Positions 2,407 through 39,735 are shown, counted from the first letter of the stretch. The stretch: DNA of 43,014 nt from Planctomycetaceae bacterium (GCA_003153375.1 PLYM01000273.1:1-43014), one strand, 5' to 3'. Notes: generated from the sequence alone by a model not told the origin. Made by a program: numbers and translations.

Positions 2407-3345
2407 TCACGAATGGAGCTGCGCCATTTGGCGAAACTCCTTGGGAAGCGGGAAATAAACCTCTTCCTCGCGGATCGCGCGCGACTCGGTCGTGGCGCCA
2501 AATCGCTCTTCGAGCAGCTTGACGCATTGCTCGACGACGTTCTCCGGCGCGCTGGCGCCGGCCGTAATCAGCACCGTGTCTTGCGGGCCGAACCAGGCGA
2601 GGTCAATGTCGGCCGGGCCGTCGATCAGATGGGCGGCCACGCCGGCTTCGGTCGCCAATTCGGCCAGCCGCTGGCTGTTCGAGCTGTTCTGACTGCCCAG
2701 CACCAGCACCACGTTGGCCTCGCGGGTCAGCAGGCGCACGGCTTCCTGGCGATTTTGCGTGGCATAGCAGATGTCTTCTTTCGGCGGCCCGACGATGTGC
2801 GGAAACCGCTGCTTGAGTCGGGCGATGATGCGATTGGCATCGTCGACCGAGAGCGTCGTTTGCGTCAGATAGGCCAGCTTGTCGGTCGACAGTTCGAGCC
2901 GATCGACGTCCTCGGGCGATTCGACCAGGATGATGGCCTCGGGCGCTTCGCCCATGGTGCCGATCACTTCGTCGTGCCCCTCGTGGCCGATCAACACGAT
3001 CGTGTAGCCGTCTTTGGCATAGCGGACAGCTTCGAGATGCACCTTGATCACCAGCGGGCAGGTGGCGTCGATGGTCTTGAGGTTCCGCTCGGCGGAAATG
3101 CGGCGAATCTCGGGCGAGACGCCGTGGGCCGAGTAGAGCAACTGGGCTCCCTCGGGCACTTCATCGAGCGTTTCGACGAACACGGCTCCCTGAGCGCGAA
3201 ACCGCTCGACAACGTGCTTGTTGTGGACGATCTCGTGATAGACGTAGATCGGCACGCCAAAGAGCTTGATGGCCAACTCCAGCGTTTCGATGGCCATGTT
3301 CACGCCCGCGCAGAAGCCGCGGGGACTGGCGAGAATGATCTTCAT
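2407..3345 (-). CDS. ispH: 4-hydroxy-3-methylbut-2-enyl diphosphate reductase (IspH/LytB)
   Basis: Last enzyme of the MEP isoprenoid pathway; it reduces HMBPP to IPP and DMAPP using a [4Fe-4S] cluster. The 312-residue protein has the three cluster cysteines C12 (RGFCAGV), C96 (DATCPLV) and C193 (DICYATQ). Substrate-binding residues are also in place: H41 (IVHNKH), H74 (YSAHGVS), H124 (HEGHDEVIGT), E126 and the SQNSSNS loop. The start at 3345 is set by the ASPRGFCAG N-terminus and an AAGGT ribosome site just upstream. It is transcribed away from hpnCDE, which uses the C15 product made downstream of IPP/DMAPP, so the two form an isoprenoid locus. Confidence 0.96.
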   Translation of the reverse strand: MKIILASPRGFCAGVNMAIETLELAIKLFGVPIYVYHEIVHNKHVVERFRAQGAVFVETLDEVPEGAQLLYSAHGVSPEIRRISAERNLKTIDATCPLVIKVHLEAVRYAKDGYTIVLIGHEGHDEVIGTMGEAPEAIILVESPEDVDRLELSTDKLAYLTQTTLSVDDANRIIARLKQRFPHIVGPPKEDICYATQNRQEAVRLLTREANVVLVLGSQNSSNSQRLAELATEAGVAAHLIDGPADIDLAWFGPQDTVLITAGASAPENVVEQCVKLLEERFGATTESRAIREEEVYFPLPKEFRQMAQLHS

Positions 3346-22730: not shown

Positions 22731-22804
22731 GGGGGTGTAGCTCAGTTGGTTAGAGCGCTAGCCTGTCACGCTAGAGGCCGAGGGTTCGAGTCCCTTCACC
22801 CTCG
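22731..22804 (+). tRNA. tRNA-Asp (anticodon GTC)
   Basis: A 74-base cloverleaf: acceptor GGGGGTG pairs with CACCCTC (one G-U), D-arm GCTC/GAGC, anticodon stem CTAGC/GCTAG with loop CTGTCAC and anticodon GTC at 22765-22767, T-arm GAGGG/CCCTT with loop TTCGAGT, and discriminator G73 as expected for tRNA-Asp. CCA is not encoded. The 3' part from the anticodon loop is the attachment site of the tandem elements downstream. Confidence 0.97.
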
Positions 22805-22817
22805 CTCATTCTAAGTC
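22763..22817 (+). repeat. attachment-site repeat, left copy (in tRNA-Asp)
   Basis: 55 bases identical to 38345-38399. It begins at the first base of the anticodon loop and covers the 3' part of the tRNA plus 13 bases beyond it. Similarity, no longer exact, continues into the integrase leader. This is the att core used by element 1. Confidence 0.92.
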
Positions 22818-22922: not shown

Positions 22923-24173
22923 ATGTCAACCATCCGCAAGCGCAGGGTCCCCGGTTACTGCTTCCACAAGGCCTCGGGGCAGGCCATCGTCCGACTGTGG
23001 GGCAAGTTTCTGTACCTGGGAGAATACGGGTCGCCGGAAAGCTACGCGAAGTACGCTCAACTGATCGCCGATTGGAGCAACGGTCAGCCAGAGCCCGCGA
23101 GGCCGCAGGGCGAGATCACGATCATCGAACTGGTCGCAGCCTGGCGACGCCACGCCCTGCGCCACTATCAAAAGGACGGCCAGCCAACAGGCGAGGTCTG
23201 CAACTTCGACCACGCAGCCAGGCCGCTGGTCGCGCTGTGCGGCGACGAGCTGGCCAGGAACTTCGGCCCGCTCAAGCTCCAAACCGTCCGCAACATGATG
23301 ATCACCGGTTTCACCAGCCGGCTCGGAACGCCGGTCAACGGAGTCTGCCGAGGCCAGGTCAACGCCCGGATCGGCCGCATCAAACGGATCTTTCGCTGGG
23401 CTGAGTCTCAAGAATTGGTACCGGCCAGCCTATCCCACGCGCTAGCAACCGTGAGGGGACTACAACGCGGCCGAACCGAGGCCCGCGAAACCGAGCCCAT
23501 TGGCCCGGTCAACGATGAACACGTCGAGGCCACCCTGCCCTACCTGCCGGCGATCGTCGCCGACATGGTCCGCGTGCAACGGCTCACCGGCTGCCGGCCG
23601 GGGGAAATCTGCTTGATGCGCCCGCGCGACGTGGACCGCCGGGCCACGCCCTGGCAGTATCGCCCGGCCAGTCACAAGACCCAGCACCACGGCCGGGCCC
23701 GCGTCATTTTCATCGGCCCAAGGGCGCAGCAGATCCTGCTGCCGTACCTGCTGCGCGATGGGGACGCCCGCTGCTTCACGCCGACCGAGAGCGAACGCAA
23801 ACGGAAGGAGCACTTGCGGGAGCATCGGAAAACTCCGGTCCAACCGTCCCAAGTCGATCGAAGTAAAAGCCGCCCGCGGGTACGGCCTACGGATCGCTAT
23901 ACAAAGGACGTCTACGCGCGAGCCGTCCGCCGCGCCTGCGACGCAGCCAACGAAAAAGCCATGCAGGACAATGGGACCGCAAGAGAAGAGAAACGAGCAG
24001 TCCCCCGATGGACACCGAACCAGCTGCGCCACACGGCCGCTACGGAGATCCGCCGACGCTTCGGCCTGGAGGCCGCGCAAGTTTGCCTGGGGCACTCGGC
24101 CGCGAACGTCACCCAGATCTATGCCGAGCGCGACAGCTCGCTCGGTTTGGAAGTCATGCGACAAATAGGCTAG
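22923..24173 (+). CDS. tyrosine integrase of element 1
   Basis: A 416-residue tyrosine recombinase expected to insert and excise element 1 at tRNA-Asp. The N-terminal part is a DNA-arm/core-binding region, and the catalytic part has R225 (TGCRPGEIC), R369 with the following H370 (NQLRHTAAT), H391 (LGHSAA) and the nucleophile Y400 (TQIYAERD). The usual first His of the HxxR box is Asn. The same change occurs in integrase 2 (38509-39735), to which it is clearly related along its whole length. An AGGAAAGG site precedes ATG 22923. It is read in the tRNA direction and lies 118 bases from it. Confidence 0.93.
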   Translation: MSTIRKRRVPGYCFHKASGQAIVRLWGKFLYLGEYGSPESYAKYAQLIADWSNGQPEPARPQGEITIIELVAAWRRHALRHYQKDGQPTGEVCNFDHAARPLVALCGDELARNFGPLKLQTVRNMMITGFTSRLGTPVNGVCRGQVNARIGRIKRIFRWAESQELVPASLSHALATVRGLQRGRTEARETEPIGPVNDEHVEATLPYLPAIVADMVRVQRLTGCRPGEICLMRPRDVDRRATPWQYRPASHKTQHHGRARVIFIGPRAQQILLPYLLRDGDARCFTPTESERKRKEHLREHRKTPVQPSQVDRSKSRPRVRPTDRYTKDVYARAVRRACDAANEKAMQDNGTAREEKRAVPRWTPNQLRHTAATEIRRRFGLEAAQVCLGHSAANVTQIYAERDSSLGLEVMRQIG

Positions 24174-24282: not shown

Positions 24283-26646
24283 ATGGAACCGCGGAACGTT
24301 GGCGCCGAGCAACCGCGCCAGACCCTCGAGAGTTTCGCCGCCGAGTTCGTGATCGAGCGCGGCTACCTGCCTGACTCGGCCAAGCCGATCCACGCCGCCG
24401 CGAGGGTTTTCTCGAGGTTTTGTCGCGAGATACGCCGACCAGGCGAACCTGCGGACCTGTCCGAGAACCGAATCAACAACTGCCTCGCGATGTTGCACAA
24501 GGCGCAATACGCCGCGGCAACCGTGAACAGTCGCCGCGACGCGCTAGTGGAACTCGGAAACCAGGCCGCAAAATGCGGGCTTCTCGTCGCTCCGCTCGAC
24601 AACCAGAAAATCATCCTCTTCGCGGAGCGAGCTGACTCCCCGGCCGATACCTTTCGATCGAGCCGCCGCTGGGCGCCACCCCGTGCACGAGGGAAATTCC
24701 GCCACCAAGACGGGAAGAGAGTGAGCCCTCCGGATGGACGTGCCTACCGAGCAACCGTTGTTCTCGATTCGGCCGCGGTCGCTCGAGTGCTGAAGCGCGA
24801 TCGCTGGCGCCCCGCCATGAAAAAGCCGCCGAGCGCCAGCGCCCTCGAGGCCCTGGTCGCCGCGTATTTGAAGAAACACCGTCTCGGGGACGACAGCTCG
24901 CCAAACCTCCGGAAAGCGGCGCGAGCATTCGACAAGTGGCACCAGGCGAAACACGGAACGCCGTTCGAACTGCGGGACTTTTCCGAGGCGCTGGCCAACG
25001 ATTTCGTCGCCTCGCTGCGCAACGAAGGCCTCGCAAGCGCCACGCTGGCCGAGAGGCAAAGCTGCATTGTCAGGCTCTACTATTACGCCGCAAGTAGACG
25101 ACTCGTCGGCCAACCAGACCGAAACAAAATCGAGTGGGTGCAGCGCCCGCAACCCGCGGGAAACAGGATCGAGCCGGAAGGCTGGGAACGGTTGCTGGCA
25201 GTCGTCGACCGCGAAGAAACGGGGCCAGCTGCGCCAGGGTTCGGCCCCCTCGAGCATCGTATTTTGCTGCTCATCATTCGTGATACGGGCTTGCCGCTGG
25301 CCACGTGCACACAACTTAAAGCCGCGGATGTGGACGAAGACGGCTGGATCAGCCCCGAGGCGACCAGGAGCAAGGCAACGCAAAGGATACCCCACCGCCT
25401 GCGCGCCGACACAATGGACGCCATTCGCCGACGCGGAACAGGATCCAGCGACCGCCTCGCGCCGTGGCCCTACACCGAGGAAGTCTACCGCAAACGCCTG
25501 AAACTCTTCTTCAAGCTCGCAGGCCTGCCGTGCAGCGACCCCATTAGAACGCTCCGCCGAAGCTCGACGAGCATCCTCGAAACCGTCGGGGCACAGTTGG
25601 GCCACGCCTATTACGGGTCGCGACGAGCTGCCAACTCCCACGGCCTCCGGTACATCGACCCCAGCATCGCGCAGCGCCGGCCCCAAACGTCCAACGCGGA
25701 CCGAAATCGATACTGCCACCAGCAGCGTGAGATAGGGAAAACGTTCGAAGAAATTCGAATCGCCGCCAATGAAAGCCCGGACGGATGGGAAAAACTTAAA
25801 ACGCCGCAGGATGTGATGAACGCCATCGAGCGCCACCTCGCCCGGATGCGGATCAAACCGGCCACGCAAGCCAAGGCGCGACGCAACGCCGAAAACCAAA
25901 TTAACGATCGGCCACGCCGCGCAACTTCTGTCCCCGTGGCCTTCCGCCAGGAAGAGATCGAAAGCTTGCTCGCAGCGATCCGCATCTTTCACCCGAAACG
26001 ACCGCCTCCCGGTTGGGACAACCGCCACGACATGGCACTGGTGCTGTTTATCCTCGATACCGGATTCGGGCTCGGGAAGTGCCTGGCGCTAACGAAAGCG
26101 AACCTCAGCGACAAGGTGCTAACGTTCGAAGGACGCGCCCGAGAACTCAGCCCGGACACGCTAGACGCGATCCAGGCCGCGCCTTCGCCGCCAACCGAGC
26201 CGCGGCTCTTCGCCTGGCCGAGATCTCAAAACGCTTACCTGCACCGGCTGAGAATACTCGGTCGCGAATCCGGGCTGCCGGTCTCGGGCCTCATCCAGAA
26301 ATTGCGCCGGACCTGGGCCACCAGCCTAGTGGGGCGCGAGTACCGAGCCCCGCGCCAACCCGCGAAGGCCGCCCAGGGCCAGACCAAAGATCCACGCCGC
26401 GAGTTTTGCTACTTGGAGTGCACGAAAGCACGGCCGGACCCCTATAAACAGATCATCAAGCTCTGCGCCGAGAAACTGCCGGGATCCAAACCCATCAAAA
26501 GCCTCAGCGGGGTCGCATTCTTAGCCAATCAGTTCGCCGAGGAAAACGGACTCGATCCAGTGCCACCGCGCCAACGACCGCGCGCGAAAAAACGCCCCGC
26601 TCGGGGCCGTTCTCAAAATCGCTCGTCAAAAGCGCGCCTCAGCTGA
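24283..26646 (+). CDS. double tyrosine-recombinase-fold protein with degenerate active sites
   Basis: A 787-residue protein. Two core-binding-like helical regions (about 12-105 and 185-290) precede two recombinase-catalytic-like regions (about 300-470 and 545-700). Region 1 keeps TLRRSS and a tyrosine Y457 (GLRYIDPS), but the first arginine of the TGLR box is replaced (DTGLPLATC) and the box-II His is missing. Region 2 has DTGFGLGKC and LIQKLRRTWATSL, again lacking the first Arg and the His, with no clear tyrosine. It probably binds DNA as an internal pseudo-dimer and does not recombine it. The tail is very basic (RQRPRAKKRPARGR). An AAAGGTG site precedes the ATG. It shares an SAM-like domain style with the 28944-30944 protein. 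Confidence 0.7.
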   Translation: MEPRNVGAEQPRQTLESFAAEFVIERGYLPDSAKPIHAAARVFSRFCREIRRPGEPADLSENRINNCLAMLHKAQYAAATVNSRRDALVELGNQAAKCGLLVAPLDNQKIILFAERADSPADTFRSSRRWAPPRARGKFRHQDGKRVSPPDGRAYRATVVLDSAAVARVLKRDRWRPAMKKPPSASALEALVAAYLKKHRLGDDSSPNLRKAARAFDKWHQAKHGTPFELRDFSEALANDFVASLRNEGLASATLAERQSCIVRLYYYAASRRLVGQPDRNKIEWVQRPQPAGNRIEPEGWERLLAVVDREETGPAAPGFGPLEHRILLLIIRDTGLPLATCTQLKAADVDEDGWISPEATRSKATQRIPHRLRADTMDAIRRRGTGSSDRLAPWPYTEEVYRKRLKLFFKLAGLPCSDPIRTLRRSSTSILETVGAQLGHAYYGSRRAANSHGLRYIDPSIAQRRPQTSNADRNRYCHQQREIGKTFEEIRIAANESPDGWEKLKTPQDVMNAIERHLARMRIKPATQAKARRNAENQINDRPRRATSVPVAFRQEEIESLLAAIRIFHPKRPPPGWDNRHDMALVLFILDTGFGLGKCLALTKANLSDKVLTFEGRARELSPDTLDAIQAAPSPPTEPRLFAWPRSQNAYLHRLRILGRESGLPVSGLIQKLRRTWATSLVGREYRAPRQPAKAAQGQTKDPRREFCYLECTKARPDPYKQIIKLCAEKLPGSKPIKSLSGVAFLANQFAEENGLDPVPPRQRPRAKKRPARGRSQNRSSKARLS

Positions 26647-26791: not shown

Positions 26792-27169
26792 ATGGCCAAG
26801 AAAATAAGCACCGCGCCCGGTGCGCAAGAGCCGGACGCAACGAGAAAGCTAGCCGGGGAGAAGCTATACCGGCTACACAAGCTCGCCAAAATGGTGCCTT
26901 CCTGCAGGAGCGGCAGGCCCCGCTCCGTCAGTACGATTTTTCGTTGGATGACGGATGGCCTACGGGGCTCGGCCGGCGAACTCGTGTTCCTCGAATGCGT
27001 CCGCCGAGGCACCGTCCGGATGTCGTCTCGAGAGGCGCTCGGTCGTTTCTACGAAGCCTTGAACGCGCAGGACACCGCGAAACGGCCAGCCGCACCTGAA
27101 ACAACGCGCGAGCGTAAGGCGCGAACGCAGCGAGCCGAGTCCGAGCTCGCACACACGCCGAACTGCTAG
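26792..27169 (+). CDS. DUF1580-type small DNA-binding protein
   Basis: A 125-residue protein. The core (LHKLAKMVPSCRSGRPRS, VSTIFRWMTDGLRGSAGELV, LECVRRGTVRMSSREALGRF) matches the pattern of DUF1580, a planctomycete family resembling excisionase/MerR-type helix-turn-helix proteins. Both ends are low complexity and charged. ATG 26792 has an AGGGGA site; an upstream ATG at 26741 in frame lacks one. In this position an excisionase or regulator role is plausible, but it is only inferred. Confidence 0.75.
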   Translation: MAKKISTAPGAQEPDATRKLAGEKLYRLHKLAKMVPSCRSGRPRSVSTIFRWMTDGLRGSAGELVFLECVRRGTVRMSSREALGRFYEALNAQDTAKRPAAPETTRERKARTQRAESELAHTPNC

Positions 27170-27386: not shown

Positions 27387-28403
27387 ATGGATGAAAAAAG
27401 CGCTGAGTGGACGGTCAACAATTGGCCCGGACTGCGAGGCGAGGCAAAGCGCTCGTTTCACCTGTGCTGGAAGAAAAACGGCCACCAGCCTGGTGAACTT
27501 TGGATCAGCGACATCGAACTTATGGAGCTCAACGGGACCAGCGGTCGAGCCGTAAGAAGATACCTCGAAACCTTGTCCCAAAAACGCCTCATCAGAATTC
27601 TCGAACGCTTGCCGGGGCGAACGCGAATCTACCTATGCGAGCCGCGCGAGGTATGCAATGACGGGAAGCAGGAAGCGGAGCGCCCGCTGCTTGAACCTTT
27701 CGCCGAACTGGCCGGAGCGAGCAACCGTCGCGCCGACAGCGCAACCTACCGGGCGGTTCTGGCGACAGATGTGACGCCAGAACCGCCGCGCCTTAGGGAT
27801 CCTTTGGGGTATGGGTATGCGCATCGACCTTTACCCTTGGACCCTTTGGAACCTTTGTTACCTGAAGGTAGGGGCCCGCAAGCATTACCGGAACCGGCGC
27901 CAGATGCAGCGCCGCATCCGACCGACAAAGCGTCGCCGCCTGCGCAGCGATCCAGCCAGCAGCCCGACCGCGAAACAGCAGCGCTCGCAGACATCGAGCG
28001 CCGAGCGAGAGCAGGCGCAGCCGCGGGGTTTCGACCGAGCCAGCCAGCCGCCGCCCCGCCACGCGTGGACTTCCGCGGGGCCGCCGCACGAGCCGAGTAC
28101 GCCTTGCCAGGCAACCCGGCGCGCTCCGCGAGAATCGAGCAAATCGTGGAAAGGATCCGCACCAGAGTCGCCGATCCGGAAATCCGCGAAACGCCGATGC
28201 TTCGATTCGCCACGGCCATCGTCGACAACCTGGTGCCAGAGCGCGAGCTCGACTCGGTGCTCCTGAGCATTGATCGGGCCCGCCGCGACAAAACGCTCAT
28301 GGGCTCGCCCTGGTGGTATTTCGTCGGGGCCGGCCGAAAAATCTTCAAGCGACACGGCATAGAAGATCGCTGGCCTACCGAGGCACCGGAGGGACGGAAG
28401 TGA
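27387..28403 (+). CDS. winged-helix DNA-binding protein, possibly replication or regulatory
   Basis: A 338-residue protein. Residues about 10-90 form a winged helix-turn-helix of the replication-initiator/DnaD-like kind (GELWISDIELMELNGTSGRA, RRYLETLSQKRLIRIL, LPGRTRIYLCEP). A long Pro/Ala-rich disordered linker (about 140-230) leads to a C-terminal helical domain (about 245-330, RIEQIVERIRTRVADPEIRE, SPWWYFVGAGRKIFKRHG). Such wHTH-linker-helical layouts occur in phage replication proteins. It is the first gene of a four-gene set with 4-base overlaps; its stop overlaps the GTG start of the next gene. Confidence 0.7.
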   Translation: MDEKSAEWTVNNWPGLRGEAKRSFHLCWKKNGHQPGELWISDIELMELNGTSGRAVRRYLETLSQKRLIRILERLPGRTRIYLCEPREVCNDGKQEAERPLLEPFAELAGASNRRADSATYRAVLATDVTPEPPRLRDPLGYGYAHRPLPLDPLEPLLPEGRGPQALPEPAPDAAPHPTDKASPPAQRSSQQPDRETAALADIERRARAGAAAGFRPSQPAAAPPRVDFRGAAARAEYALPGNPARSARIEQIVERIRTRVADPEIRETPMLRFATAIVDNLVPERELDSVLLSIDRARRDKTLMGSPWWYFVGAGRKIFKRHGIEDRWPTEAPEGRK

Positions 28404-28621
28404 ACGCCTCTCCCACCTGTCGCAATTGCGGCTCGACCGAGTTCTGCGAGATTCCCGTCCACCAGGGCCGCAGCGTCCGGCGCGACTGCGCCCGATGCGG
28501 CAGAACCTTCAATTTCCCCGTCTGGAACGGAGAGCAAAACGAGACGAGCGCCGCCAAAGCGGCGACCAGCACCGCGGGCGAAGAGTTGGCCATCAACCAT
28601 CGAAAGGAAAACCGGCAATGA
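28400..28621 (+). CDS. small zinc-ribbon protein
   Basis: A 73-residue protein starting at a GTG that overlaps the upstream stop (GTGA), with GGAGG seven bases before it. Two CxxC pairs (CRNCGSTEFCEI and CARCGRTFNFP) make a zinc ribbon; the rest is a charged, disordered tail. Probably a DNA- or RNA-binding accessory protein. Its stop overlaps the next ATG. Confidence 0.7.
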   Translation: MNASPTCRNCGSTEFCEIPVHQGRSVRRDCARCGRTFNFPVWNGEQNETSAAKAATSTAGEELAINHRKENRQ

Positions 28622-28947
28622 CATCGACAGCGCCACCAAAATCACCGAGGAGACGAGGAAGCGCCAAGCCGCTGACGTTCACCCGCCGCAAACGGATCCG
28701 CGGACGGAACGCCCGAACGCACCGCGAGTGGCAGGACGAGACAGGCAGCTACCTCATCATCTGGCGCAAACAAGCCTACGGGGTCAGCCTGCCGCCCCAA
28801 TTTTTCGCGCTCACTATGCCGCCCGGCTTCAGCTCCGAGGAGTACCGGATCACGCTCGACGGTCGACCGCCGAAGCCATTTCGAACATTCAACGCCGCCG
28901 CAACGGCCTGCCAGAATCACGCAGACCAAACGGGGGCCGCACAATGA
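28618..28947 (+). CDS. small basic hypothetical protein
   Basis: A 109-residue protein with a strongly basic N-terminus (PKSPRRRGSAKPLTFTRRKR) and a compact C-terminal part rich in aromatic and beta-forming residues (GSYLIIWRKQAYGVSLPPQF, PFRTFNAAATACQNHADQ). No family is recognised. An AAAGGA-type ribosome site precedes ATG 28618, which overlaps the upstream stop, and the TGA overlaps the ATG of the recombinase downstream. Confidence 0.7.
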   Translation: MTSTAPPKSPRRRGSAKPLTFTRRKRIRGRNARTHREWQDETGSYLIIWRKQAYGVSLPPQFFALTMPPGFSSEEYRITLDGRPPKPFRTFNAAATACQNHADQTGAAQ

Positions 28948-30944
28948 TCGCTCGATCGACTCAGCTGAGCGAAGCCCACTCCCCCGCGGCAATTTCGCTT
29001 GCCGATTTTTTCGAACGCTGTTTCGCACCCGAACGACTCAAGGGCGCGAGCAGCCCTCGCCGTTACACCCACGCGATCTTTTGGCTCGGCAAGGCCCTCG
29101 GACGCGCGCCATCGTTGGCCGACGTGACCACGAACAACGTGCGCGCCGTCGAACGGCTCATCCGCAAGAACGGCTTCAGCGCGGAGCGGGCCCGAAGCCT
29201 GAAAACTCGCCTGTTCGCGATTAGTCGCTTTGCCTCGCGGCTGGGCCTGGTGGAAACCTGCGCGCTAGCGCCAGCCGTTCGCCAGGCCGCAGTGCCCGCG
29301 TTTCTCAAGACGACACCCGCGCCGGGAACGCTGGCCGCCACCCTCGAGCGCTTCAATGCCGAGGGGGCGGAGTCAAAGCACCCGGCCGCAATCGCCGCCC
29401 GCGCGGCCGCGGTTCGCGCCTTCGACGTGTTCCTGGGCCGCTACGCCACACCCGCGGAGCTGACCACGGAGCAGCTCACGAAGTTTCGTCACGAAATCCT
29501 GTCTATGGGGCGGGCTGAGTCGCTGCACCGCGTGTACTGCAAGCGGCTCAAATCAATCGGCCGAATGCTCACACCCGAGCAATTCCCGCTGCCGCAGACG
29601 ACGAGCAGAAAACTACCGCCGCCAGAGCACGGAACAATCCGCGAGTTTTACGAAGAGACATACCGGCCGGAGCGGCTGATCGCGTGCAGCGCTAAAACAG
29701 CGCGAGACTACCGTTACACGTTCCGGTTACTTTTCGAGTTCGCTGGCCGAGACCTTACGACGGCCGAGCTATCGGACAGGATCGCGGGCGACTTTCTAAC
29801 CTGGCTGCTCGCCGGGGGGATGAGCGCCATCACGGTGAACGGTCACCGTCGCAGGCTGTTCGCGCCATGGAGGCTCGCGGCAGAGCGCGGGCAAACCGCT
29901 AGCGCCCCGAGAGTGCGCAAGATCCCCGAGTCGACTGATGCTCCCGATGCGTGGAACGCGGAGGAGGTGGCGCGGATCATCCAGGCTCCGCTGAGCATTC
30001 AATGGCAACGGCCGATCGACGGCATCCCGGCCGGCGCATGGTGGCACGCGTTCTTGTTGGTGGGTTATTACACCGCGCTACGCCGTGGGTCGCTGCTCAA
30101 ACTCCGCCGCCAGGATGTGAACCTGGAAAACGGCTGGATCAACGTCGGGGGCGACAAAATGAAAAACCGCCGCGGCCAGCGCCTCCGCATCGGCCCCGAT
30201 GCGGTCGCCGCCGTCGCCGCAATCTGGGGCCCTGAACGCGAGCTGCTATTTCCATGGCCGCTCCTCCGAAACGCGGCCTTTAACCATTTCCGCCGAATCG
30301 TCGCCGCAGCCGGAGTAGCGCCGAGCACGCGCAAAGCGATGTCAGGGATCCATAAGCTCCGCAGGACCGTGGCCACGATCACAACCGTTAAGCGAGGCCT
30401 CGCCGCGGCCGCTGCGCTGCTCGGGCATAGCGGAACCGAAATCACGAAGCGGTATGTCGACCCGAGCAAGGAGGCAGGCCAAGACGCTACGGAATACCTG
30501 CCCCAAATCTCGCGCGGCTCGAGGCCACAGACCCCGCCCGCCGCTCTCAATCCCGCCGAAGCGCTTCTCGAGGCCAGGGCGCTTCTAGAGCGCGGCAACG
30601 CCACGGCCGCGGCCATGACAGCGAGAGCCGCGCTAGAACGCTGGCTCAAAATCGAGAGCCAGCGCCACGGCCTACGACCGCCGAAGGGTTTCGGGGGACT
30701 GGCCGGCCGAGCCCGCCACCTGGTGCGCGCGGGCCGCCTGGTCGAATCGACCTACCGCCAAATCCGCCGCGCCGCCAAGGCCGGCAATCGCGCCGCTCAC
30801 GGCCACCAGGTCGCCCCCGGCAAGGTTGCCGCAATGGTCGAGCTCGTCGAGCAGATCTTCTCTGCGAGCGTGTCCGAGACGCCGGGCACAGCCAGTATTT
30901 CGCGCGGCATAAGCGGCACCGAGAGAACGAAGCGCGGAAGCTGA
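28944..30944 (+). CDS. tyrosine recombinase with repeated core-binding domains and C-terminal DUF4145/HEPN-like domain
   Basis: A 666-residue protein. Three SAM-like core-binding domains can be seen (about 17-105, 130-215, 230-320), then a tyrosine-recombinase catalytic domain with R380 (TALRRGSLL), box-II H470 and R473 (IHKLRRTVAT), H495 (LLGHSGTE) and nucleophile Y504 (KRYVDPSKE), so it looks active. A C-terminal helical domain (about 535-645) has the NPAEALLEARALLERGN opening, ARAALERWLKIE and the GNRAAHGH motif typical of DUF4145/HEPN-like domains. It is the last gene of the coupled operon. It is not the att integrase and may act in replication, resolution or copy control. Confidence 0.8.
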   Translation: MIARSTQLSEAHSPAAISLADFFERCFAPERLKGASSPRRYTHAIFWLGKALGRAPSLADVTTNNVRAVERLIRKNGFSAERARSLKTRLFAISRFASRLGLVETCALAPAVRQAAVPAFLKTTPAPGTLAATLERFNAEGAESKHPAAIAARAAAVRAFDVFLGRYATPAELTTEQLTKFRHEILSMGRAESLHRVYCKRLKSIGRMLTPEQFPLPQTTSRKLPPPEHGTIREFYEETYRPERLIACSAKTARDYRYTFRLLFEFAGRDLTTAELSDRIAGDFLTWLLAGGMSAITVNGHRRRLFAPWRLAAERGQTASAPRVRKIPESTDAPDAWNAEEVARIIQAPLSIQWQRPIDGIPAGAWWHAFLLVGYYTALRRGSLLKLRRQDVNLENGWINVGGDKMKNRRGQRLRIGPDAVAAVAAIWGPERELLFPWPLLRNAAFNHFRRIVAAAGVAPSTRKAMSGIHKLRRTVATITTVKRGLAAAAALLGHSGTEITKRYVDPSKEAGQDATEYLPQISRGSRPQTPPAALNPAEALLEARALLERGNATAAAMTARAALERWLKIESQRHGLRPPKGFGGLAGRARHLVRAGRLVESTYRQIRRAAKAGNRAAHGHQVAPGKVAAMVELVEQIFSASVSETPGTASISRGISGTERTKRGS

Positions 30945-31000
30945 GCAGGCTCGCGCACCAAGAATGGAAACCGGAAAACTCAAACCGAGGCGACGGGATT

Positions 31001-31014
31001 ATTTCGCGCGAAAT
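31001..31014. promoter_or_regulatory. perfect palindrome resembling Noc/parS sites, upstream of the ParB-like gene
   Basis: ATTTCGCGCGAAAT is a perfect 14-base palindrome 50 bases before the ParB-like start codon. It has the same outer frame as the Noc site ATTTCCCGGGAAAT and the parS core TTTCACGTGAAA, with other central bases. A related one-mismatch copy is at 37288. Likely bound by the ParB-like protein or a regulator. Confidence 0.5.
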
Positions 31015-31064: not shown

Positions 31065-32027
31065 ATGGCCACCGTAGCCCGAAACCAACATAGCGATCGC
31101 CGCCAGCTCGATCGCGACCAGCTCCGCCAGATCCCAATCGAGTTGATCGATCCCAACCCGAACAACCCTCGCGAAGATTGGGAGACCCAGCAAATCGACC
31201 GTTTGATCCCCAGCGTTCGGCGCTTCGGGCTGATCGAGCCGGCCATCGTGCGAGCGCTCATCACCGAAGCGGGCGAGCGCTTCGAGCTGATCGCCGGCGA
31301 GCGACGGTTCCGAGCCGCGAAGGCCGCAGGGGAAAAGACCATCAGCTGCATCGTGCGAAACATCTCGGGCGAAGACGCGCTGGCGCAAATGCTAATTGAA
31401 AACCTCGAGCGCAAGGCCCTCTCGCCGCTCGAGAAAGCTCGATTCCTCAAAAGGCTCTGCACGCCCTGCAGGCTTGGAGGCGCCGGCCTCAAGCAGAAAG
31501 ACGCCGCGCGATTGTTCGGCAAAACGCAGCCGTGGGCCGCCAGCCTATTGGGCCTCTTGGAACTGCCCGAGGCCTGGCAACAAAGGTTAGCGCGCGGAGA
31601 GATCGAGCTGACGCAGGCAAGATCGCTGATTGCCCACCGCGACCGCCCAGAACTCTTGAAGGCCATCGAACTCGACATGAAACGTAACGCCTTCGCCTGG
31701 AGGACGCAGGTAGACTTCGACCGCAGTTTAAAACTGCTGCTGGCCGATCAGACAGCGGGCAGCGTCTCGCCGCCACGCAGCCCTCGAGCCGCCAAATCGG
31801 TCGCACCCGGTCCGCGGCAGCCGAGCCGCGAGGCCAACCAGGCTGTCGCCGGCCGATCCCGCCAGGCTAGCGCCGAGATCGCCGGCGATCGTTCGGAGCC
31901 AAGCGCGCCGGCCGCCGAAGACGTCGCCGCGGTGTGCGCAGCCATCGCGAGACTTTCAGACCAGGAGCTCAGCCAGGTCGAGGCCGCCGCCAGAGACCGC
32001 CGAGAGCAATTGCGCAAGCAACGCTGA
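31065..32027 (+). CDS. ParB-like partition/transcription protein
   Basis: A 320-residue ParB-family protein. The N-terminal ParB/Srx CTPase domain has IPIELIDPNPNNPR, the box FELIAGERRFRAAKAAG (GERRFRA is the CTP-binding box II) and QMLIENLERKALSPLEKA. The HTH region follows (GLKQKDAARLFGKTQPWAAS, LLGLLELPEAW, GEIELTQARSLIA). The C-terminal third is disordered with a short final helix. No ParA ATPase gene is visible in the element, so it is an orphan, as in Noc-like or KorB-like regulators. An AGAGAGG site precedes the ATG. Confidence 0.88.
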   Translation: MATVARNQHSDRRQLDRDQLRQIPIELIDPNPNNPREDWETQQIDRLIPSVRRFGLIEPAIVRALITEAGERFELIAGERRFRAAKAAGEKTISCIVRNISGEDALAQMLIENLERKALSPLEKARFLKRLCTPCRLGGAGLKQKDAARLFGKTQPWAASLLGLLELPEAWQQRLARGEIELTQARSLIAHRDRPELLKAIELDMKRNAFAWRTQVDFDRSLKLLLADQTAGSVSPPRSPRAAKSVAPGPRQPSREANQAVAGRSRQASAEIAGDRSEPSAPAAEDVAAVCAAIARLSDQELSQVEAAARDRREQLRKQR

Positions 32028-32081: not shown

Positions 32082-32657
32082 GTGAGAACGATTCAAACAC
32101 TCGACCAGCCCTTCGAACGCAGCAAAAAAACCAAGGCTCTGGAGGACAAACTCAACCGCCGCGCTGAAAGCCACAACGCTGCCTGGGAAAAGCACGAAGC
32201 CGAAAGGGAGAAACTGAAGGCCACTGAGATAACGCCTTCGAATTCCCGCAGCATCGCCGAGGCCTCGTCGGCTCTCGGGCATGAGAAACTAAAACTGCTC
32301 GCGGAGGAGAAGATCATCCGCGAAGAAATCGACTCGCTGTACAACGATTACGAGCGAGACATGCATGCCGCTCGAACCGCCGCGTACGAGGCGCACGCGG
32401 CACAAGAAACCGAGGTCCGGGCCAAGCTCGTGGAGATCGGCTACGTCGATGGAATTATTCCGGGAGGCGACAGGTTGTCGATCACGCCGGGACTGATCGC
32501 GGCCCACCCTTCAGTCTTCGGGGCCCGTCGCAAGAAAGACGCCATTGAAAGCGTATCGCTCTACGCAAATAGAGGCTTAAACACCGCAGCCCTCGAGGAG
32601 CTCGCCGCGGAGATCGAAAAGATCAGAGCCGAGCTGCTGGGGCCCGCCGGCCGGTGA
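32082..32657 (+). CDS. hypothetical coiled-coil protein
   Basis: A 191-residue protein starting at GTG 32082. Residues about 15-130 are charged and predicted helical/coiled coil (SKKTKALEDKLNRRAESHNA, EKLKLLAEEKIIREEIDSLY). A small C-terminal part has GYVDGIIPGGDRLSITPGLI. No family is recognised. It follows the ParB-like gene by 54 bases on the same strand and may be cotranscribed. Confidence 0.65.
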   Translation: MRTIQTLDQPFERSKKTKALEDKLNRRAESHNAAWEKHEAEREKLKATEITPSNSRSIAEASSALGHEKLKLLAEEKIIREEIDSLYNDYERDMHAARTAAYEAHAAQETEVRAKLVEIGYVDGIIPGGDRLSITPGLIAAHPSVFGARRKKDAIESVSLYANRGLNTAALEELAAEIEKIRAELLGPAGR

Positions 32658-33574: not shown

Positions 33575-35755
33575 ATGGGCGCAAATGAAATCAGAGCGGG
33601 CCGCGCCGCCGTCGAGATCAGCGGCAAGGACAAGCTCAGCGGATCGTTGACCCGCATCTCCGCCCGCTTCAAGGGCTGGGCCGAGAGCATCAAGGCCACG
33701 GGCAGCAAATTGGCCACCAGCAAGCTCGGCCTGGGCTCTATCCTCGCCGAGGCCTTCACCACCACCGGGATCGCCGGCGCTGTGAAGGCGTACGGCTCCG
33801 CGGGCTCAACACTGCTCACGCTCTCGAAAAAAACCGGGGTCACCGTCGAGCAGCTCTCCAAACTCAAATACGCCGCCGCCGCAACGGGCGGAGAATTCGA
33901 AGACGTCGAGGTCGGGCTGCGCGGGATGGACAAGTTTATGGGCAAGGTCGCCAAGGGGGGCGAAGAGGCCGCGGACACGCTGCGCCGGCTTGGCCTCAAT
34001 GCCGGGATCCTCAAGTCCCTGAGCCCCGACCAGCTCTTCGATACGCTCGCCAAAGCAGTCGGGCGCGTCTCAGATCCCACACAACGCGCCGCCCTCGCGA
34101 TGCAAGTGTTTGGCAAAGGCGGAGCAAACTTGCTCCCGGTAATCAACAATCTCGCCTCCCTGCAGAAGGAGGCCGAGGAACTCGGCGTGGTGATGAGCAC
34201 CGAGGCCGCAGAAAAGGCCCACGGGATGGAGAAGGCGCTCACGCGCCTCGGCATCGGGGCGAAGGGGATATTTTCCGCGATCGGCTCGATCTTCGTGGAG
34301 GACGTCACCCGACTCGCCGAGCGTATTCTGCGCGTAATAATCACCGTGCGCGACTGGATCCGCGAAAACAAAGCGCTCGTCGGCACGGTACTGCGCACGG
34401 CGGCTGCCGTGGCCGCCGTCGGGTCCGCCGTGGTCGCTACGGGGCTACTTTTTGGAGTCGCCGCCAGCGCCTTTGGAGGATTAGCGAGCGCGGCCGCGTT
34501 CGTGGGCGCCGGCCTGGGAGTGGTGACCACCGTAGCCGGGGCCATCTTATCACCGATCGGCCTGGTGATCGGCGCCGTGGTCGGCCTCGCCGGTTACTTC
34601 TCCTACGCCAGCGGGGCCGCCGGCGCCGCCTTCGAAATGATCCGCTCCGCCCTGGGCCCGCTCGCGGAGGACGTCAAAAGCGCCTTCGAAGCCATCCGCA
34701 ACGCGATGGCCGCCGGGGACCTCGGCGCCGCCGCGAAAGTACTCTGGGCCCTGATCCGCGTCGAGTGGCTTGCGGGCACGCAATGGATCTCCGCCAAGTG
34801 GCAGGCCTTCACCGATTTTTTCGTCGACACCTGGCGCGCGGCCGTGTACGGCACCGCGTCGATTCTGACCTCCGCCTGGTCGGGCCTGCAGGCCATTTGG
34901 GACAACCTCACAACGGGGGTACTGGCCGGCTGGGAAATGGTCGCAAACGGGATCGAAGCGAGCTGGGAATTTGTCATTCAGAGCCTACGCAAGGGACTCT
35001 CGGTGGTCATCTTCGCCATCGAGACCATTGAGGACACCTTCCGCAACGTCATCAATGCAGTTGCGGACATCTGGGATGCGATGATTGTCGGCATCAAAAA
35101 GGGGATCGACTCTATCGGCGCTGCGCTGGGCTTCGGCAGCTCCGCGGACACGATCGACTTTAACGCCGACCGCCGCAAGAAAGATCGCCACAAGGACGAC
35201 AAGGGCGACCGGCGCACAGAGTTGGCCGACCGCAACGCGAAGATCGACGCCGAGACCGAAGCCCAGGGGGCCGACCGCCGCGGCCGCCATGGGGCGGCCA
35301 TCGCCAACTTGGCCACAGGCAGCGCCAACAGTCAAACAGAACTCCAACAGCAGAACGCCGCCGCCCAGAAAAACCTCGCCGACGCCGCGGCCGCGGAGAA
35401 GCAGGCGCGCGACGCCGGTCGCGATGCCGCCAACCAGGGCGATCGGGACGCCGCCGACAAAGCGCTCAAGGAAGCCCAGGACGCGTTCGCCGCGGCCAAG
35501 GATTTGGCCATGGCTCTCACGCCGATCGAGGGCGGCAAAGTGGACGACGGGGACGAGGAAGACCCAGAAAAGAAAAACAAGGAGCTCGAGGCCCAGGGAA
35601 AGAGCTCGGGAACGTTCAGCGCCTCCGCCGCCGTGCGCATGGGGGGCGGCGACGACTACGCCCAGCGCACCATGGTCGCGACCGAGGGGACCTACCAAGA
35701 AATGAAACAACGCCGCAAGCAGGGACAGGGCGGGGGAGAACCGGTCTACCGCTAA
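33575..35755 (+). CDS. phage-type tail tape-measure-like protein
   Basis: A 726-residue protein. The N-terminal part (about 70-215, LSKKTGVTVEQLSKLKYAAA, ALAMQVFGKGGANLLPVINN) is the typical tape-measure core, followed by long hydrophobic stretches (about 270-345, AAVAAVGSAVVATGLLFGVA, GAILSPIGLVIGAVVGLAGY). Trp-rich repeats occur about 390-490. The C-terminus is charged and Ala-rich coiled coil (NAAAQKNLADAAAAEKQARD). In tailed phages this protein sets tail length and helps DNA entry. It is somewhat short and no other tail gene is adjacent except small neighbours. ATG 33575 lies behind a GGGCCC hairpin and lacks a clear ribosome site, so the start is uncertain. Confidence 0.82.
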   Translation: MGANEIRAGRAAVEISGKDKLSGSLTRISARFKGWAESIKATGSKLATSKLGLGSILAEAFTTTGIAGAVKAYGSAGSTLLTLSKKTGVTVEQLSKLKYAAAATGGEFEDVEVGLRGMDKFMGKVAKGGEEAADTLRRLGLNAGILKSLSPDQLFDTLAKAVGRVSDPTQRAALAMQVFGKGGANLLPVINNLASLQKEAEELGVVMSTEAAEKAHGMEKALTRLGIGAKGIFSAIGSIFVEDVTRLAERILRVIITVRDWIRENKALVGTVLRTAAAVAAVGSAVVATGLLFGVAASAFGGLASAAAFVGAGLGVVTTVAGAILSPIGLVIGAVVGLAGYFSYASGAAGAAFEMIRSALGPLAEDVKSAFEAIRNAMAAGDLGAAAKVLWALIRVEWLAGTQWISAKWQAFTDFFVDTWRAAVYGTASILTSAWSGLQAIWDNLTTGVLAGWEMVANGIEASWEFVIQSLRKGLSVVIFAIETIEDTFRNVINAVADIWDAMIVGIKKGIDSIGAALGFGSSADTIDFNADRRKKDRHKDDKGDRRTELADRNAKIDAETEAQGADRRGRHGAAIANLATGSANSQTELQQQNAAAQKNLADAAAAEKQARDAGRDAANQGDRDAADKALKEAQDAFAAAKDLAMALTPIEGGKVDDGDEEDPEKKNKELEAQGKSSGTFSASAAVRMGGGDDYAQRTMVATEGTYQEMKQRRKQGQGGGEPVYR

Positions 35756-36353: not shown

Positions 36354-36731
36354 ATGCGCAACCGTCGACGCAAGGGCGATGCCGACCAGCAGGATTGGTA
36401 CAGCGACTTCATCGGCGCAACCAGGCTCGAGAAACAACGCGATTGCGTGGACGCAGGTTTCCGGTCGTGTGCGCCACGCCAAGGCCGTGCGCAGAGCCCG
36501 CGAGCGCGACGCCGGAGCTCAAAAGAAGGCGCCCGACAGACAGCGGCCGCGTTCGTGGGCGCGGGCCTGGGCCTGGTGGCCACCGTGGCCGGGGCCATCA
36601 TCTCGCCGGTCGGCCTGGTGGCCGCGGCAACCGTCGGACTGGCAGGCTATTTCATCTACACCAGCGGAGCCGCTGGCGCCCGCCTTCGAAGCGCGCCGCC
36701 GAAACAAAAGGAGAGCGAACAATGCACATGA
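36354..36731 (+). pseudogene. remnant of a second tape-measure-like gene
   Basis: The open frame reads a basic, unrecognised N-terminus and then AAAFVGAGLGLVATVAGAI, SPVGLV and TVGLAGYFIYTSGAAGA. This closely repeats part of the tape-measure protein (its bases 34491-34636 match 36544-36690 at the DNA level). The copy has one extra base near its end that shifts the frame before FEA, after which it stops. It is a decayed fragment of a paralogue or a partial duplication, though the short frame could still be translated since its stop overlaps the next start. Confidence 0.65.
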
Positions 36732-37111: not shown

Positions 37112-37287
37112 GCCCAGGTAGATCCGCCGGCCGGTCCGACCGCGGGTAACGGGAAGCCGGCCGGCGAGATACCGGGACCAACAGAAAAACGGGCGCGAGC
37201 GAAGGCACAGGGAAATCGAGCCGCGGCAGACCCGGCAACGAGCCAACCGCGGACCGGGCCCCAGATCCGAAACCTAGGCCGCGGGTT

Positions 37288-37301
37288 ATTTCGCGCGCAA
37301 T
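37288..37301. promoter_or_regulatory. near-copy of the ATTTCGCGCGAAAT palindrome at the HTH gene start
   Basis: ATTTCGCGCGCAAT, one mismatch from the palindrome at 31001. It overlaps the first base pair of the following ATG, so a bound protein would block transcription or translation start of that gene. Confidence 0.4.
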
Positions 37302-37485
37302 GATGATCGACGCCAGAGACTCGCCGCTTAAGACTCGAGCAGAGGTCGCCGCCCTGCTCGGGATCTCGAGCAAGCGGACCGGCGAAATCGAAAGGCGCGC
37401 GCTAAAGAAGGTGCGCAGGGCAATCGAGCATGAAGCCGAGCTCGCCGGCCTCAGCGTCCGCGAGTGGCTGTTCGCGGAGCGCTGA
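37300..37485 (+). CDS. sigma-70 region-4-like HTH protein (a)
   Basis: A 61-residue protein; the core TRAEVAALLGISSKRTGEIE followed by RRALKKVRRAIEHEAELAGLS has the form of sigma-70 region 4 helix-turn-helix. It ends REWLFAER. It is a clear paralogue of the minus-strand gene at 37581-37796, facing it. A regulator of element transcription is the likely role. A palindrome shared with the ParB-like promoter region overlaps its start. Confidence 0.75.
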   Translation: MMIDARDSPLKTRAEVAALLGISSKRTGEIERRALKKVRRAIEHEAELAGLSVREWLFAER

Positions 37486-37580: not shown

Positions 37581-37796
37581 TCATCCTTCCCCACCGAGCC
37601 ATTCGGGGACACTCAGGCCAGCGGTCCGGGCCTCGGCCGCGAACGCCGCGCGGATCTTCCGCAGCGCGCGGTGCTCGATCTGATAAACGCGCGTGCGCGA
37701 GATTCCCAGCAGCTGCGCAACCTCGAGCTGAGTCTTGGGCTCGGCAACATGCGAGGTCGCCGGGCCAGGTCGGGCTGTTACCACCTGCAACTCCAC
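37581..37796 (-). CDS. sigma-70 region-4-like HTH protein (b)
   Basis: A 71-residue protein; TQLEVAQLLGISRTRVYQIE then HRALRKIRAAFAAEARTAG and LSVPEWL. It is paralogous to the plus-strand gene at 37300-37485 with the same final LSVxEWL pattern, and closer to canonical region 4 (RVYQIEHRALRKIR). GTG 37796 is chosen because GGAGGT lies eight bases upstream; a TTG at 37799 is also possible. It is the only identified minus-strand gene in element 1. Confidence 0.78.
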   Translation of the reverse strand: MELQVVTARPGPATSHVAEPKTQLEVAQLLGISRTRVYQIEHRALRKIRAAFAAEARTAGLSVPEWLGGEG

Positions 37797-38344: not shown

Positions 38345-38399
38345 CTGTCACGCTAGAGGCCGAGGGTTCGAGTCCCTTCACCCTCGCTCATTCTAAGTC
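38345..38399 (+). repeat. attachment-site repeat, second copy
   Basis: Exact copy of 22763-22817: the tRNA-Asp 3' part from the anticodon loop plus 13 bases. It is the right end of element 1 and the left end of element 2. The tRNA 5' half is absent. Confidence 0.92.
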
Positions 38400-38508: not shown

Positions 38509-39735
38509 ATGCCCCGTCTCAAGAACGCCTTTCCCAAGTACCGCCATCACAAGGCCTCTGGCCAAGCAGTGGTCACGCTCAATGGCGCGGATATCTACCT
38601 TGGCCCTCATGGATCGACCGCCAGCCGGCTCGAGTATGACCGGTTGATCGGCGAGTGGCTTGCCGGCGGACGACGCCTGCCCGGAACATCAACAGGCGAC
38701 AACACGACCATCGTCGAGATGCTGGCGCGCTACTGGGTCTTCGCCACCCACCACTACCGGACCCGGGACGGTAAGCCATCCAAAGAGCTCGACAACATCC
38801 GATACGCGGTTCGACCGTTGAAACGACTCTACGGCCACACGCTGGTCAGTGAGTTCGGACCGCTGGCCCTGAAGGCCCTTCAACAGCGAATGGTCGACGA
38901 CGGCCTGTGTCGGCCGGTCGTCAATTCCCGGATTGGTAGGATCAAGCGCGTCTTTCGGTGGGCCGTATCTGAACAGGTCTGCCCGCCTGCGGTGTTGCAA
39001 GGCTTGGAATCCGTGATGGGACTCCAGCGGGGGCGAACGGATGCCAGGGAGCCGGGCCCGGTCCTGCCTGTTGATGAAGCAAAGGTCGATGCCACCCTGC
39101 CCCATCTTCCAGCGGTCGTGGCCGATATGGTCCGGTTTCAGCGGCTTGTGGGATGTCGACCCGGCGAAGTCTGCTGCCTCCGGCCGGCCGATGTCGACCG
39201 GTCCAAGGAAATTTGGAGCTATCGACCACTGAAACACAAGACCGAGCACCATGGTCACCAACGTGTGATCTTCATTGGTCCTCGAGCCCAGGGGATTCTG
39301 CGTCCATACCTGCTGAGAAATACCGAGTCGTTTTGTTTTTCTCCGGCCGAGAGCGAGCAGCAGCGGAAACGGGAAATGCGTGAGGAACGGAAAAGCAAGG
39401 TCCAGCCCTCGCAATTCGATCGAAGCACGCGACGGCCTGAGGTCAAGCCGGGCAAACGCTACCGGAAGGACGCCTATGCGAGGGCGATTCGACGTGGCTG
39501 CGACAAGGCTTTCCCTACGCCAGAAGGGGTGACGGAGGAAGAGCAGGCAGAGTGGCAGAAGGATCACCGCTGGTCGCCGAACCAGCTAAGGCATGCGGCC
39601 GCGACTGAGATTCGTCAGCGATTCGGCCTCGAGGCGGCGCAAGTCGTGTTGGGCCATAGTCGAGCCGATGTCACGCAAGTTTATGCAGAGCGGGATAATG
39701 GGTTAGCCGCGAAAATCATGAGCGAAGTGGGATGA
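38509..39735 (+). CDS. tyrosine integrase of element 2
   Basis: A 408-residue tyrosine recombinase closely related to the element-1 integrase (shared blocks HKASGQA, NSRIGRIKRVFRW, GLQRGRTDARE, RLVGCRPGEVC, NQLRHAAATEIRQRFGLEAA, VTQVYAERD). Catalytic residues are the Arg of GCRPGE, the Arg of NQLRH, the His of LGHS and nucleophile Y392. The first box-II His is Asn, as in its partner. ATG 38509 has AAAGGA before it; the frame is open upstream through the att repeat, which is not coding. It should use the same tRNA-Asp site. Confidence 0.93.
   Translation: MPRLKNAFPKYRHHKASGQAVVTLNGADIYLGPHGSTASRLEYDRLIGEWLAGGRRLPGTSTGDNTTIVEMLARYWVFATHHYRTRDGKPSKELDNIRYAVRPLKRLYGHTLVSEFGPLALKALQQRMVDDGLCRPVVNSRIGRIKRVFRWAVSEQVCPPAVLQGLESVMGLQRGRTDAREPGPVLPVDEAKVDATLPHLPAVVADMVRFQRLVGCRPGEVCCLRPADVDRSKEIWSYRPLKHKTEHHGHQRVIFIGPRAQGILRPYLLRNTESFCFSPAESEQQRKREMREERKSKVQPSQFDRSTRRPEVKPGKRYRKDAYARAIRRGCDKAFPTPEGVTEEEQAEWQKDHRWSPNQLRHAAATEIRQRFGLEAAQVVLGHSRADVTQVYAERDNGLAAKIMSEVG

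Follow-up and report, generated by a model that had tools for sequence, protein, structure and literature searches.

A candidate tyrosine recombinase with a predicted HEPN-fold tail beside an orphan ParB in a tRNA-Asp-integrated element of a Planctomycetaceae bacterium

The element and its genes

The DNA analysed here, referred to as the window, is a stretch of 43,014 nucleotides from a Planctomycetaceae bacterium (GCA_003153375.1, PLYM01000273.1:1-43014), whose main features are listed in Table 1. Positions 27387-30944 are occupied by four open reading frames (ORFs), named genes 1-4, which are joined by three 4-base overlaps (GTGA, ATGA, and ATGA), in agreement with a preliminary description of this sequence. 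Tight overlaps are common in the window, where they were found in 5 of 26 co-oriented gene pairs, and those within genes 1-4 are at most evidence of translational coupling. A 16-bp inverted repeat (GGCGGTTCTGGCGACA / TGACGCCAGAACCGCC) is present in the interior of gene 1 (27752-27787).

Genes 1-4 and the adjoining parB gene are located inside an element integrated in tRNA-Asp, which the preliminary description had missed. The first gene after attL, int1, probably codes for the element's own integrase. Beside it, a 787-aa protein contains two recombinase-like catalytic regions, from both of which the catalytic Arg and His are missing (TGLPLATC and TGFGLGKC; IRTLRR and IQKLRR), and reads as a double dead recombinase. 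At the other end, int2, which is 53% identical to int1, appears to begin a further element, or the remnant of one, arranged in tandem; no third att copy occurs in the window, and the right end of this tandem element would lie outside it. Genes for terminase, portal, and capsid were not detected in the window element. A 138-bp internal duplication (34490-34627 and 36543-36680, 80% identical) involves part of the tape-measure gene, a fragment of which constitutes the ORF at 36354-36731. In addition, two small sigma/HTH-like ORFs at 37300-37485 (+) and 37581-37796 (-) are convergent and show 50% mutual identity.

Table 1. Coordinates of the tRNA-Asp element, its genes, and its predicted domains and sites in the window
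Feature	Position	Strand	Evidence or remarks
tRNA-Asp, element attachment site	22731..22805	+	ARAGORN
attL, 55-bp direct repeat over the 3' part of tRNA-Asp	22763..22817	+	Repeat comparison
int1, tyrosine integrase adjoining attL	22923..24173	+	PF00589 E 5e-9; position
787-aa protein, two recombinase-like catalytic regions	24283..26646	+	phrog_1 E 4e-11; BLASTP
DUF1580-like small protein	26792..27169	+	E 2e-4, slightly under cut-off
Gene 1, winged-helix, replication-initiator-O-like protein	27387..28403	+	338 aa; weak phrog_345 match, E 0.054
Gene 2, zinc-ribbon protein	28400..28621	+	73 aa; two CxxC pairs; weak family matches only
Gene 3, small basic protein	28618..28947	+	109 aa; relative in G024
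Gene 4, predicted tyrosine recombinase and HEPN-fold tail	28944..30944	+	666 aa
First core-binding-like repeat (gene 4)	28992..29279	+	aa 17-112; BLASTP cross-alignment; three SAM stretches in relative
Last core-binding domain (gene 4)	29637..29918	+	aa 232-325; PF13102/PF02899
Catalytic domain (gene 4)	29964..30470	+	aa 341-509; PF00589; R380, K407, H470, R473, H495, Y504
Predicted HEPN-fold tail (gene 4)	30552..30872	+	aa 537-643; five helices; usual R missing from the motif AKAGNRAAH
Diverged parS-like palindrome GTATTTCGCGCGGCAT	30895..30910	.	Motif search
parS-like palindrome TTATTTCGCGCGAAAT	30999..31014	.	Between recombinase and parB
Orphan ParB	31065..32027	+	ParB_N, HTH_ParB, GERR motif; no ParA-binding G[KR]G[LFI]
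191-aa protein common to the G011 element	32082..32657	+	E 4e-15, 6e-17
Tail tape-measure protein	33575..35755	+	phrog_8462 E 5.5e-34
parS-like palindrome TTATTTCGCGCGCAAT	37286..37301	.	Motif search
attR, identical 55-bp repeat	38345..38399	+	Element length 15,582 bp
int2, right after attR	38509..39735	+	53% identical to int1

The tight coupling of genes 1-4 had been read as a sign of one machine. This view was not supported by comparison with G022, G011, G110, and G394, the related genomes in which a recombinase of the gene 4 type precedes a similar ParB: the three upstream genes are not kept there, no homologues of genes 1-3 were detectable beside the recombinase, and homology between genes 1 and 3 and G011 genes of similar size could not be detected. 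Elsewhere, genes 1-3 have distant relatives only. The recombinase and ParB are kept instead, and the conserved unit is thus the recombinase followed by ParB and not genes 1-4, a link that had been overlooked. A winged-helix gene related to gene 1 is present in G046, where the next genes are three other small ones, overlapping by 1 to 4 bases, and a longer ParB; the recombinase is absent from this locus. An operon type comprising an initiator-like gene, small genes, and ParB thus recurs, and one lineage of it contains the recombinase.

Catalytic core and C-terminal tail of the gene 4 protein

The product of gene 4 matches the Phage_integrase family (PF00589, E 1e-13) as well as SAM-like core-binding families. 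Its active site is intact, as had been proposed (R380, K407, H470-x-x-R473, H495, and Y504), and these residues together with the family match identify it as a predicted tyrosine recombinase. In the G011 relative, the second catalytic His is replaced by Asn. With regard to the three core-binding domains previously assigned to this protein, the presence of several is supported by the alignment of its N-terminal part to the core-binding regions of other recombinases and by the G022 relative, in which Pfam finds three SAM_5 stretches, whereas it reveals a single region in the window protein. The full-length structure model (pLDDT 49) is too poor for use, and the number three therefore rests on sequence.

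The C-terminal part contains the reported GNRAAHGH at residues 614-621. Its DUF4145 (PF13643) scores are 18.7 bits in the window, 15.6 in G011, and 28.6 in G022, for a Pfam cut-off of 23.1. When modelled alone with one relative, residues 530-645 formed a five-helix bundle (pLDDT 81), whose best match in the PDB was the HEPN protein 2hsb (Z 15.1, rmsd 2.1 over 111 residues). Nearly all of the best 35 PDB matches are HEPN proteins, including Csm6, HepT, AbiA, AbiV, and MtlR, and helical bundles unrelated to HEPN reached a Z of about 6 in this comparison, far below that of 2hsb. A credible match came from fold comparison alone, as the tail sequence gave none in a search against the PDB. The model thus bears out the suggested HEPN-like nature of this domain, which is predicted to adopt the HEPN fold.

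The three known members share the motif R..[AL]K.[GA]N.AAHG with local variation (AKAGNRAAH, AKTANNAAH, and LKTANRAAH), in which R609, K612, N615, and AAHG are invariant. The Rx4-6H RNase motif is absent from all three tails, none of which has an Arg 5-7 residues before the His: the usual Arg position is Ala, Ala, and Leu if taken eight residues before the His and Gly, Ala, and Ala if taken five before it. Ordinary DUF4145 domains of related genomes differ in this respect: in 11 motif readings, the residue eight positions before the His was Arg or Lys, and Gln in a single case. The absence of the usual Arg from every tail makes RNase activity unlikely and speaks against the earlier idea of RNA or nucleotide sensing through an active HEPN domain. 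Under the rule set out by Anantharaman et al., HEPN domains without Rx4-6H would bind nucleic acids and have no catalytic activity, and family membership is accepted for domains that lack the motif (PMC3710099). The tail is probably a dimerisation or nucleic-acid-binding module. A tail that, despite its missing canonical Arg, is able to sense or cut RNA, or else to bind ParB or detect the CTP state of ParB, could gate recombination; the pair would then consist of an RNA- or nucleotide-controlled site-specific recombinase and an orphan ParB clamp, but this is quite improbable.

Full-length relatives with the tail were found in G022 (C4) and G011 (C265), at 38 and 40% identity, respectively. No further tailed relatives occur in samples of 396 genomes of the order and 397 of the class, and a search of 255 genomes of the phylum with a profile built from six recombinase relatives added none. 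Pattern-based searches found none in viral contigs; of those run on genome contigs, one retrieved the G011 locus only and another nothing. Relatives in phages and plasmids were not found by tblastn either. G394 and G110 carry tail-less relatives with the same ParB partner. In the tree, the five ParB-paired recombinases cluster (89/95), and the three tailed ones cluster within them (94/97). Most simply, the tail would have been gained once in this small three-member branch, a course consistent with the tree though not proven by it; the three tailed copies known are all from draft assemblies. Its absence from two of the five ParB-paired recombinases indicates that the tail is dispensable.

Tandem recombinase genes were also observed. 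In G394 (L063 9312-12977), the gene order is recombinase, decayed second copy of its catalytic domain, ParB, and resolvase fragment; a 178-aa ORF considered there as a split-off HEPN domain was rejected, being the decayed catalytic copy itself. At other planctomycete loci (L038 1460-6521, L039 1582-4783, and L068 2222-5022), tyrosine recombinase genes occur in tandem as pairs or triplets, several of them with 4-base overlaps.

The preliminary description had linked the recombinase and its HEPN-type domain to defence. Genes 1-4 could be envisaged as a system for anti-phage defence or RNA sensing, with an active HEPN RNase that recombination triggers, a reading compatible with the fold of the tail and with the common fusion of DUF4145 domains to restriction enzymes and helicases (PMC3710099). 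Such a system is highly improbable given that the tails lack Rx4-6H and have Ala or Leu in place of the Arg/Lys of ordinary DUF4145 domains, that two of the five recombinase-ParB pairs do without the tail, and that the operon mates are not conserved with the recombinase. PADLOC, which covers known families only, returned no family for genes 1-4, and their surroundings are of prophage type; a defence role is unlikely.

The ParB partner and the elements that carry the pair

The ParB encoded after gene 4 comprises ParB_N (E 8e-25) and HTH_ParB (E 2e-10) domains and a GERRxRA box, the features of a ParB CTPase. A recombinase lies directly upstream of ParB in all five members of this subfamily, as opposed to none of 25 other ParB loci; in G394, the decayed recombinase copy intervenes. 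Among 313 genomes with some ParB, the ParB profile gave scores above 430 bits for five members and 217 for the next one. Since these five loci also served to build the profile, the result means that members of the subfamily lacking the recombinase did not turn up, and does not amount to independent sampling. The subfamily has five members in 396 genomes.

No ParA was detected in the elements by a Walker-A regular expression (deviant Walker A), and the ParA-binding motif G[KR]G[LFI] is absent from all five subfamily ParBs. Classical partition is therefore unlikely, and these proteins qualify as orphan ParBs by the usage of PMC12704722, in which orphan ParBs such as Noc have roles outside partition.

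The four non-window loci contain 11 sites of a parS-like palindrome, GTTTCCNNGGAAAC (one mismatch at most), against 0.27 expected, the motif having been derived from the same five loci where it was first noticed. It was not found in six controls (about 114 kb). The palindrome is similar to canonical parS, TGTTTCACGTGAAACA. The window has its own diverged variant, of the TTATTTCGCGCGAAAT type, with three sites (30895, 30999, and 37286) against 0.17 expected.

An orphan ParB without a ParA motif and palindromes near parB and other genes would also suit a regulatory or DNA-inversion switch, in which ParB spreads from the palindromes and controls genes or presents sites to the recombinase; orphan ParBs with functions other than partition, such as Noc, are known (PMC12704722). 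However, neither an invertible segment nor inverted recombination sites were found near the pair, and we regard such a switch as unlikely.

The G011 element (15,267 bp) is of the same design as that of the window. It is flanked by near-identical 55-bp repeats at 3044 and 18311, has its own integrase at the right end, and shares with the window element the tailed recombinase, ParB, and the 191-aa protein. In G022 and G110, the gene after ParB codes for a large serine recombinase, and portal/capsid genes are located near the pair, while the G394 contig contains a P4-type integrase gene in addition to the resolvase fragment after ParB.

It may be asked whether the gene 4 recombinase is itself the integrase of another phage, nested or ancestral, retained as a fossil or an alternative enzyme with ParB as its neighbour by descent. 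Its membership in the phage-integrase family would agree with this, as would the degraded or satellite-like look of the window element, with no terminase, portal, or capsid gene detected, and the position of the G394 pair near the chromosomal border of its element. On the other hand, another integrase-type gene is found near the recombinase-ParB pair in all five loci (in G394, the resolvase fragment and the P4-type integrase), which argues against an integrase function of gene 4. Moreover, the position at the att repeats is held by the other integrase in the window and in G011, where the tailed recombinase is internal, and no att-like repeats could be detected beside the pair in the window or in its relatives. 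An integrase origin of this kind is thus doubtful.

Proposed role and comparison with known systems

The reading that we favour, tentatively and with a probability of about 0.45, is that the product of gene 4 is an accessory tyrosine recombinase and belongs, with the orphan ParB, to a maintenance module of a prophage- or satellite-like element, the HEPN-fold tail being confined to one branch. Genes 1-4 and parB would form the replication and maintenance region of a 15.6-kb element that int1 integrated in tRNA-Asp, and the 666-aa protein would be a second tyrosine recombinase working with the adjoining ParB. ParB would most likely load on the predicted parS-like sites near the pair and organise the DNA of the element, and the recombinase may resolve multimers or otherwise process the excised, replicating element, by analogy with Cre in phage P1. 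The role proposed for the pair is based on plasmid prophages, which typically have ParB-type partners and Cre/Xer-type recombinases for dimer resolution (PMC8026635). The difference between the window palindromes and those of the other four loci counts against this maintenance role, and no recombination site for the gene 4 recombinase was identified.

These observations point to recurrent use of a recombinase-ParB pair by mobile elements in a phylum that has received little study. Were ParB to control the action of the recombinase on the excised element, the DNA of the element would be handled without ParA. The tail, as modelled, would offer a clean case of an HEPN-fold domain without the usual active-site Arg that has been reused on a DNA enzyme.

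Several known systems resemble parts of this locus. The element is similar to phage satellites and small tRNA prophages in its size of about 15 kb, its tRNA att repeats, its integrase, and its tape-measure gene, and like satellites it has no detected terminase, portal, or capsid gene; the likeness is one of size, att sites, and gene content. Gene 4 resembles Cre of phage P1, which occurs with ParAB (Xer/Cre systems of plasmid prophages), in its catalytic residues and in sharing a phage-type element with a ParB gene. Unlike Cre, it has several core-binding domains and a predicted HEPN-fold tail and directly adjoins parB; unlike the P1 system, the window element has no detected ParA, is integrated, and possesses another integrase.

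The tail resembles DUF4145 (PF13643) of the HEPN superfamily in its predicted fold and in the [GA]N.AAH motif, with the G022 relative above the Pfam cut-off, and differs from it in being fused to a tyrosine recombinase and in having Ala or Leu instead of the basic residue eight positions before the His. A fusion of HEPN and tyrosine recombinase domains is not among the DUF4145 fusions described previously (PMC3710099), and no paper naming both 'HEPN domain' and 'tyrosine recombinase' was found in the literature searched. The fusion thus appears to be undescribed in that literature, and gene 4 would join two protein families that it does not record together.

Finally, the subfamily of the window ParB shares with orphan ParBs of the Noc-like, mobile-element type (PMC12704722) the ParB_N domain with GERR, HTH_ParB, nearby parS-like palindromes, and the lack of a ParA-binding motif. 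In contrast to other orphan ParBs, its members form a subfamily of their own and are always preceded by a recombinase of the gene 4 type.
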